Positions 8,191-27,870 of a DNA stretch of 28,618 nucleotides are shown here, piece by piece. Each line of letters opens with the position of its first letter. Within the stretch, counting starts at the first letter, position 1. Source of the DNA: a virus. Below the pieces are notes generated by a model, which did no database searches, was not told where the DNA came from, and saw only the letters and a program-made list of their open reading frames with translations. Where the stretch lies: positions 1 to 28,618 of IMG/VR virus record IMGVR_UViG_3300010885_029750. The stretch is one strand, 5' to 3'. The position numbers and the translations under genes were made by a program.

Positions 8191-8198
8191 TCTAAATA
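8191..8198 (+). promoter_or_regulatory. TCTAAATA promoter-like box directly before the plus-strand gene
   Basis: TCTAAATA is followed by CAGC and the ATG at 8203. If transcription begins about six bases after the box, as for T4-type late promoters, the mRNA would start at the ATG and be leaderless; no Shine-Dalgarno sequence is present. The same arrangement is seen before the gene starting at 27559. Confidence 0.45.
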
Positions 8199-8202
8199 CA
8201 GC

Positions 8203-8667
8203 ATGGACAACAAACTATTAAAAGAATTCATTGCAAGTGTGGCAGACATCAAAGAACTCAAACCCGTCACAGACGGCAGCAGACCGCCTGAGGATGGTAC
8301 ACAAGTTGTGTATCAAGGCCAATGGATTGAAATTGATCGCAAAAACAACCCCAGCTTGGGTTTTAAATTTATCCGGTTAAAGCCAGTGCAACGCTTGTGC
8401 CAATTGGGCTGTGGCGATATTGTGCCGGATCAGGTGATTGAACGCAGACATGTACAGTATCCACATCCACATTGGAAGACTCGTTGTGCTACTTGTCACA
8501 AATACTTGATGCCCACGGGTGAATTGGCTTTGAACAGCGGGTCAGCACAGCGGGCCTATCATGCATGGGCTAATAGCCAAGGTGCTGTGTCGGAACCACA
8601 CATTACTGAGCATGAAGATCACACTGAAATAATCACAAACAACAGCATTATAAAGAAGTATAGATAA
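8203..8667 (+). CDS. Cys-rich (zinc-ribbon-like) protein, only plus-strand gene (154 aa)
   Basis: 154 residues from the ATG at 8203; an in-frame TTG at 8185 would add six residues but overlaps the promoter-like box. Residues 35-60 are beta-like (VVYQGQWIEI, GFKFIRL). Cys66-x3-Cys70 (CQLGCGDIV) and Cys95-x2-Cys98 (TRCATCHKYL) lie about 25 residues apart and can form a zinc ribbon. The rest holds Trp/His-rich HPHWKTR and an acidic C-terminus (EHEDHTEIITN). From memory, similar CxxxCG...HWKTRC proteins of unknown role occur in cyanophages and related aquatic phages. It is antisense to the tail/fibre transcription direction and stands directly before a structured RNA, so an RNA- or transcription-related function is an attractive but untested guess. 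Confidence 0.8.
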   Translation: MDNKLLKEFIASVADIKELKPVTDGSRPPEDGTQVVYQGQWIEIDRKNNPSLGFKFIRLKPVQRLCQLGCGDIVPDQVIERRHVQYPHPHWKTRCATCHKYLMPTGELALNSGSAQRAYHAWANSQGAVSEPHITEHEDHTEIITNNSIIKKYR

Positions 8668-8670
8668 ATA
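8663..8670 (+). promoter_or_regulatory. GATAAATA promoter-like box before the structured RNA
   Basis: GATAAATA overlaps the TAA stop of the Cys-rich protein gene (8665-8667). A start site four to six bases downstream would coincide with the first base of the RNA's closing helix (8674). No -35 match. The RNA could instead be processed from the upstream mRNA. Confidence 0.4.
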
Positions 8671-8817
8671 AAAGTGTTAGGGAGGTGTGTGCTACAAGGC
8701 GCACAGAAGTGATGCAATATCATTTCTCCTCTACCGATCGGGCTACAGCCATTGCCCTATCTCCAATTATAATCCTCCCTAACACCTTTAATACCTGCTA
8801 TAAGCGGGTATTTTTTT
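8671..8817 (+). ncRNA. Candidate structured small RNA: four-way junction plus terminator
   Basis: Pairing read by eye. P1: GTGTTAGGGAGG (8674-8685) with CCTCCCTAACAC (8774-8785), 12 perfect pairs, extendable by three A-U pairs past a bulged C. P2: 8686-8692 with 8699-8705, seven pairs, loop 8693-8698. P3: 8706-8713 with 8719-8726, eight pairs, loop GCAAT. P4: 8736-8743 with 8754-8761, eight positions with one C-U mismatch, 10-base loop. P1, P2 and P3 follow each other with no unpaired base; 9 and 12 single-stranded bases flank P4. A terminator hairpin with seven T follows. P2 and P3 each contain a G-U pair that would become A-C on the other strand, so the RNA is plus-sense. It is unlike a tRNA and I do not recognise the family. 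It may be a free sRNA or a structured 3' end of the Cys-rich protein mRNA. Confidence 0.7.
8790..8817 (+). terminator. Strong rho-independent terminator
   Basis: AATACCTGC (8790-8798) pairs with GCGGGTATT (8804-8812) around the loop TATAA, nine pairs with one U-G, running into seven T (8811-8817). It ends the plus-strand unit at the stop codon of the convergent 59-residue gene (8816). It has no T run on the minus strand, so minus transcription is not stopped here. Confidence 0.9.
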
Positions 8818-8995
8818 ACCAGTAATTATCTGGGCAAGACACAATGGGTATTAACACCTTGGCTGGCATATAGCAACCACATACATTACAAAAACTGGTG
8901 TCAGGGTTAAATTTAGCACAATTTTGACACTGTGCTAATCTATCCTTTGCATATCCAATAGACAATATATATTCTAGTTGTTTTCTACTGATCAT
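8816..8995 (-). CDS. Cys-rich miniprotein (59 aa), likely zinc-binding
   Basis: ATG at 8995 overlaps the stop of the 928-residue fibre gene (ATGA); TAA at 8816. The 59 residues hold Cys23-x2-Cys26 (CQNC), Cys36-x2-Cys39-x-Cys41 (CNVCGC) and a late Cys54 in a CPDNYW C-terminus. This CxxC...CxxCGCxM...CPxxxW layout is, from memory, a recurrent small phage protein family of unknown function, often in cyanophage-like genomes. Residues 1-20 form a basic helix. It is cotranslated with the fibre gene, so it may be made late. It converges on the structured-RNA terminator. Confidence 0.8.
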   Translation of the reverse strand: MISRKQLEYILSIGYAKDRLAQCQNCAKFNPDTSFCNVCGCYMPAKVLIPIVSCPDNYW

Positions 8996-27612: not shown

Positions 27613-27669
27613 GATTCCATTTTAAGTTAAGGATATTTACAATGTCCGGAACTACTCGGACGCATTTAT
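27613..27669 (-). other. Short 3' untranslated region with a second hairpin
   Basis: Between the 66-residue gene's stop and the terminator: GTCCG/CGGAC hairpin with an 8-base loop (about 27661-27644) and a TGTAAATA box (27641-27634); a GATAAATA box at 27674-27667 overlaps the gene's stop codon. The two hairpin loops of this region share GAGTAGT. The spacing could allow an 80-90-base transcript ending at the terminator, but no extended fold like that at 8671-8817 is evident. Confidence 0.4.
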
Positions 27670-27870
27670 TTATCTAGGTTTGAATTGTTCTGAGATGTCT
27701 TTGAATCGGCTTTGGTGTTGCAGTTGTTGAATCAGCAGAGTCTGTTCTCGCATGAGGTTACCCAAGACCAATTGGTTGTGTTGCAGTTCACGCACATACT
27801 GTTCCAAGTTGTGGGTTCTGTCATTCAATTGTATCAATAGGTCATATGGATCTATATTTTGTTGGAACAT
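27670..27870 (-). CDS. Small coiled-coil protein (66 aa)
   Basis: 66 residues, nearly all one amphipathic helix rich in Leu and Gln (IDPYDLLIQLNDRTHNLEQY, VRELQHNQLVLGNLMREQTL), typical of a coiled-coil oligomer, with a basic tail. No family is recognised. It starts three bases after the 129-residue gene's stop and is the last gene before the terminator. A role as scaffold, spanin-like or regulatory oligomer cannot be told apart; there is no signal sequence or membrane segment. Confidence 0.7.
   Translation of the reverse strand: MFQQNIDPYDLLIQLNDRTHNLEQYVRELQHNQLVLGNLMREQTLLIQQLQHQSRFKDISEQFKPR

Follow-up and report, generated by a model that had tools for sequence, protein, structure and literature searches.

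A conserved structured RNA forms the 3′ tail of a putative zinc-ribbon protein gene in uncultivated phages

Results

The gene for ZNR, a putative zinc-ribbon protein, has a 3′ tail that folds into a structured RNA of about 112 nt. This is the main finding beyond the coordinates given by the initial annotation. The gene and the folded RNA form a conserved unit without earlier description, and they probably work as a pair. The window analyzed here is the whole of IMG/VR record IMGVR_UViG_3300010885_029750, 28,618 nt of virus DNA, whose terminase is closest to those of phage DSL-LC06 (29.8 kb, Dishui Lake) and the 32-kb pelagiphages. The relatives are uncultivated phages, mostly from freshwater. 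Related DNA was found by blastn in loci brought in via phage proteins, and all of these showed the same design on folding. All counts below derive from related sequences with shared ancestry and are therefore not independent. The unit in the window comprises the following features.

8193-8198, plus strand: TAAATA box, 4 nt before the ZNR start codon
8203-8667, plus strand: ZNR, 154-aa putative zinc-ribbon protein (four invariant Cys, HWKT motif)
8664-8670, plus strand: AUAAAUA box, over the ZNR stop codon, separated from P1 by 3 nt
8674-8785, plus strand: structured RNA, a four-way junction closed by P1 (RNAfold, covariance model)
8674-8685/8774-8785, plus strand: P1, perfect 12-bp closing helix (97% of cells paired)
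8687-8693/8698-8704, plus strand: P2 hairpin, loop ACAA (two-sided changes at every pair)
8705-8714/8718-8727, plus strand: P3 hairpin, loop GCAAU in the window (93% of cells paired)
8736-8761, plus strand: P4 hairpin, pairs 8740-8743/8754-8757 and 8736-8738/8759-8761 (all stem pairs covary)
8744-8753, plus strand: P4 loop, conserved 10 nt, UACAGCCAUU (loop counts in relatives)
8790-8812, plus strand: intrinsic terminator, 10-bp hairpin with a T run to 8817 (fold; relatives similar)

The RNA fold and its strand

The initial annotation had described a 12-bp closing helix, three hairpins, and a terminator, and RNAfold reproduced all of these structural claims. At the P1/P2/P3 junctions, at most one unpaired base lies between helices. 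Minimum-energy folding of both strands, proposed there as a check, gave −61.2 kcal/mol for the plus strand with the terminator included, compared with −31.3 ± 3.5 kcal/mol for shuffled sequences (z = −8.64); the opposite strand folded less strongly (z = −4.44). G-U pairs had also been cited in favor of a plus-strand RNA. Across relatives, paired columns contain 41 G-U combinations versus 16 A-C/C-A combinations, and a second subclass has a fixed G·U pair in P1. The G-U excess and the fixed pair show that the RNA is the plus strand, as had been supposed.

Covariation in relatives

A covariance model was built from four close copies, and with it 22 distinct members, window included, were recognized in phage contigs (E < 1e-7). 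In the 22-member alignment, 92.1% of pair cells are kept, compared with 70.7% after shuffling and 40 to 48% after sliding. Two-sided changes occur in 26 of 31 pairs, which no shuffle reached, and there are 132 compensatory cells versus 37.6 expected. Both sides change in 7 of the 12 pairs of P1 and in all 7 pairs of P3. RNAalifold independently retained P1, P3, and P4, on the same alignment, which had been fitted to the model. The alignment (A8) was model based; MAFFT alone misaligned P2 and P3. Compensatory changes preserve the fold in relatives, which puts it far beyond chance and confirms the structured RNA as real and conserved. The covariance search with compensatory changes in P1 to P4 that the initial annotation had called for thus located the RNA in relatives. 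Smaller elements are shared as well: the P2 motif UACAAGGC is common to the window and several relatives, the P3 loop reads GGCAU or GUCAU in many relatives, and hairpins like the window terminator also lie 3′ of the RNA.

Searches against Rfam (4,227 families) gave no match in the window and none at the RNA element in 34 relative loci, where the sole match was RF01718, beside the element in L022. With no Rfam match, a plus-strand RNA, and covarying relatives, the description of the element as a previously unrecognized structured phage RNA stands. Two loci (L015 and L270) carry a permuted RNA in which the GCCAU hairpin lies before the closing helix and not inside it. A P1-pattern search of genome contigs returned many matches across unrelated bacteria, which were read as repeats and discarded.

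The ZNR protein

Cys residues 66, 70, 95, and 98 of ZNR are invariant, and no other residue is invariant across 35 aligned members. From the sequence, they are putative zinc ligands. The second Cys pair is preceded by HWKT in the window and mostly by HWRT in the family. ZNR had no match in Pfam, PHROG, NCBIfam, or PDB, and none of the 35 members had a significant match in Pfam. The AlphaFold model has a mean pLDDT of 83.7. Foldseek and VIA searches with this model found no PDB match above noise, although Foldseek may miss a fold, and in BFVD three uncharacterized proteins of uncultured phages matched it (E ≤ 0.001). In tblastn, four ZNR members queried against 50,697 phage records gave no convincing match, and 369 genomes from a single bacterial class lacked ZNR. 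Of the 35 members, 6 weakly matched a PADLOC candidate model, PDC-M26B (best E, 0.0016).

Nearly all ZNR homologues have a TAAATA- or TTAAATA-like box 3 to 4 nt before the start codon and lack a Shine-Dalgarno (SD) sequence. The box is probably a phage promoter element or marks a leaderless start. TAAATAC boxes also precede early genes that have SD sequences, and in the window TAAATA(C/T) boxes stand before genes at 618, 868, 2374, and 23535 (minus strand); we take these to resemble the T4 late promoter TATAAATA. The TAAATA(C/T) boxes are a candidate class of phage promoter.

Linkage of gene, RNA, and AUAAAUA box

The ZNR open reading frame ends six bases before P1 in the window, and in nearly every relative a ZNR-type protein ends 2 to 6 bases before P1. 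Almost all covariance-model matches lie within a few nucleotides of a ZNR stop codon. The proposal that the RNA might be the 3′ end of the mRNA for the Cys-rich protein was therefore right in its anatomy, the RNA lying directly 3′ of ZNR. A profile search over all open reading frames found more distant ZNR members, nearly all of them followed by a long closing helix, hairpins, and a terminator, with an RNA of unrelated sequence; such RNAs stand behind homologues down to an E value of about 1e-9. Of 38 distinct ZNR homologues, 32 are followed within 140 nt by a closing helix of 9 bp or longer, compared with 9 of 150 control genes. Likewise, the 3′ flank folds with z < −3 behind 31 of 38 homologues and 21 of 150 control genes.

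Directly before P1 the initial annotation had seen a TAAATA box. Its conservation is borne out: an AUAAAUA box is present in 34 of 38 ZNR homologues and in 7 of 319 other genes. As an element separate from the gene the box needs qualification, since it contains the ZNR stop TAA (8665-8667), though it is also kept out of frame. Its register relative to the stop is −5 in 23 cases, −1 in 10, and +10 in 1, and this spread of registers indicates that it is kept as nucleic acid and not merely as a stop codon. We infer that it may be a cleavage site or a start signal. Elsewhere in the window, behind the gene at 27670-27870, the minus strand at 27633-27680 contains AGATAAATAAATGCGTCCGAGTAGTTCCGGAC, which repeats the box before P1, together with one more hairpin and a stem resembling a terminator; this may be a second RNA at a gene end.

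Genome context and mobility

The unit was found at no fewer than three genome positions and in both orientations. In one arrangement, that of the window, it runs opposite the late genes between gpJ/fiber and Gp80; in another, it follows gpJ and shares the strand of the late genes; in a third, it lies between the last fiber genes and the HNH, lysis, and terminase genes. Gene and RNA stay joined while the neighbors change, with at most one copy on the coding strand per phage searched. The RNA thus goes with ZNR rather than with the neighboring genes, and functions tied to the fiber genes are unlikely. Constant gene-RNA pairs usually reflect a direct functional link. In the window, the 59-aa Cys-rich protein at 8816-8995 (minus strand; phrog_13558, weak DUF6171) is a neighbor often seen beside the unit in relatives.

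The P4 loop and other loop motifs

The most constant part of the RNA is the P4 loop, UANNGCCAUU. This loop is present in 28 of 37 RNAs (0.0 in shuffled sequences), and GCCAU occupies a hairpin loop in 34 of 37, even where the stems are unrelated (0.5 in shuffled sequences). Retention of the loop while stems are replaced is as expected of a recognition site, and the loop can be read as a base-pairing seed too. More generally, CAU occurs in 60 hairpin loops versus 15 in shuffles, and CUCC occurs in 14 versus 3.5. Behind the RNA in L071, L126, L247, and L251 there are repeated small CUCC-loop hairpins of the AAAATTCTCCAATTTT type.

A kissing contact between GCAAU of the P3 loop and AUUGC at the edge of P4, suggested by the initial annotation, did not hold up. 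Such complementarity was no better than that of shuffled loops (p of about 0.1 to 0.3); across 32 RNAs it ranged from 0 to 5 bp, reached 4 to 5 bp in some members, and was absent in about half, and the P3 loop differs in relatives. In addition, part of the 3′ arm of P4 lies within ATTGC (8751-8755), and kissing would therefore break two P4 pairs. Small minus-strand open reading frames starting from the complement of the P4 loop (AUGGCUGUA) were also considered; they run from 4 to more than 30 codons, and because these lengths are not conserved they were rejected as coding sequence.

Discussion

Our tentative preference is that the putative zinc protein ZNR recognizes the RNA of its own message in a Com-like manner, and we place this ahead of a trans-acting small RNA (sRNA). 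Com of phage Mu is a Cys4 zinc finger that reads a hairpin loop on the message of its own operon (PMC6483171). The Com/mom system and the ZNR unit share a small four-Cys phage protein with an RNA hairpin just downstream on the same message. They differ in that ZNR has no Pfam profile match to the Com family and its binding is putative, in the motif itself (CC(N)2-3GAG in Mu, UANNGCCAUU in the ZNR RNA), and in that a terminator, not an overlapping regulated gene, follows the ZNR RNA. The unit would be a compact phage transcription unit of about 600 nt, running from a start box through a nearly leaderless ZNR gene and an AU-rich box to the RNA of about 112 nt and its terminator. ZNR would bind the UANNGCCAUU loop of P4 and then either control its own mRNA by feedback or form a stable ZNR-RNA complex once the message is cut at the AUAAAUA box. 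The outcome would be autoregulation or an action on host or phage gene expression. Covariation, the one-to-one link, the mobility of the pair, the kept P4 loop, and the Com precedent count for this reading; the lack of a match between ZNR and any known RNA-binding family and of a PDB match for its predicted fold counts against it.

Possible, though less probable, is a trans-acting sRNA that is cut or transcribed apart from the ZNR message and whose loops mask ribosome binding sites (RBSs) of host or early phage genes. GCCAU, GUCAU, and GGCAU are complements of the starts AUGGC, AUGAC, and AUGCC, and UUCUCC/UCUCU are complements of SD sequences; CAU and CUCC loops exceed shuffles, as given above. 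In the window's class, an anti-SD core lies 4 to 12 nt downstream in 34 of 45 GNCAU sites (10.0 ± 2.5 with shuffled flanks), and the distance peaks at 7 to 9 nt, the spacing of an SD from its start. RNAs that combine an unpaired anti-SD with an unpaired anti-AUG element number 18 of 22 and 10 of 15, more than in any shuffle. In phages with the unit, genes most often begin with AUGGC or AUGAC, and AUGGC starts at least 10 of the genes directly downstream of the RNA. However, the RNA fits starts from other phages as well as it fits starts of its own genome (p = 0.64), and classes other than the window's lack the spacing (4 of 26 sites versus 3.9 expected). In L030 the GCCAUU loop is kept, yet the downstream gene starts with AUGAAA, and relatedness of the sequences inflates the anti-RBS enrichment. 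When all starts were ranked by duplex, no promoter-box gene came consistently on top. In the window, the RNA (GCCAUUG...AUCUCC) complements the RBS of the gene at 1578-2354 in two parts, but this pairing was rejected because it fails across relatives. Anti-SD sRNAs such as rhizobial AbcR are host encoded and not tied to a protein gene (PMC8844928); the ZNR RNA resembles them in its exposed CU-rich anti-SD elements, strongest in the window's class; no target of the ZNR RNA was found among the phage starts, with no preference for those of its own genome.

The gene-RNA link could have another reason, for example mRNA stability. In this improbable reading, the helix would guard the ZNR message from 3′ exonucleases and aid termination, with the sequence incidental. 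In nearly all relatives the RNA comes right behind the stop codon and a terminator follows it, which fits this, but the terminator hairpin alone would suffice, and protection needs no three extra hairpins, no 10-nt loop (28 of 37), and no AU box in several registers. We consider it very unlikely that the RNA is a regulated terminator or put-like antitermination element at which ZNR or another factor sets read-through: several phages have an early-gene block downstream on the same strand, but convergent genes lie downstream in the window and in eight other contexts, and downstream genes carry TAAATAC boxes of their own. Least credible is a role in antisense or fiber-directed control or as a packaging RNA like phi29 pRNA; the initial annotation had raised antisense control and packaging, and had named pRNA without claiming a link. 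The window unit does lie between opposite-strand fiber genes, but most relatives have it elsewhere, on the same strand as its neighbors, so antisense control of an opposing fiber transcript is not supported. The long helix joining both ends and the several hairpins recall pRNA; against this, position is not kept, there is no Rfam match to pRNA or any other family, loop-loop complementarity is inconsistent, the phages belong to another group, and the ZNR RNA is joined to a zinc-ribbon gene.

Morons are usually protein only. The ZNR unit is like a phage moron in its own terminator and its variable position between late genes in both orientations, and probably also in a start of its own at the candidate promoter box TAAATA; it is unlike the usual moron in including a conserved structured RNA. 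A further, rather doubtful possibility joins two of the readings above: a mobile protein-plus-RNA module of virulent phages whose ZNR-RNA complex would use exposed anti-start and anti-SD loops to keep many genes of the host, or early genes of the phage, from being translated. If the anti-RBS reading were true, the RNA would be a general phage tool for translation takeover.

Returning to ZNR as reader of its own RNA, the pair offers a ready test of RNA use by small phage zinc proteins. The RNA is a new structured phage family with strong covariation, tied almost always to an uncharacterized protein family. Neither ZNR nor its RNA belongs to a known family, and searches of cultured-phage records did not find ZNR, while the design resembles known kinds, namely, phage RNA families, morons, and Com/mom. 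Polynucleobacter-1 (RF01718) is another structured RNA, of freshwater bacteria or phages; its fold and sequence differ from those of the ZNR RNA, and neither model matches the other. A Polynucleobacter-1 RNA (73 bits) lies at L022:4197-4329, on a phage contig directly behind the unit and about 100 nt behind its RNA, which suggests that this family occurs in phages of the kind that carry the ZNR unit.
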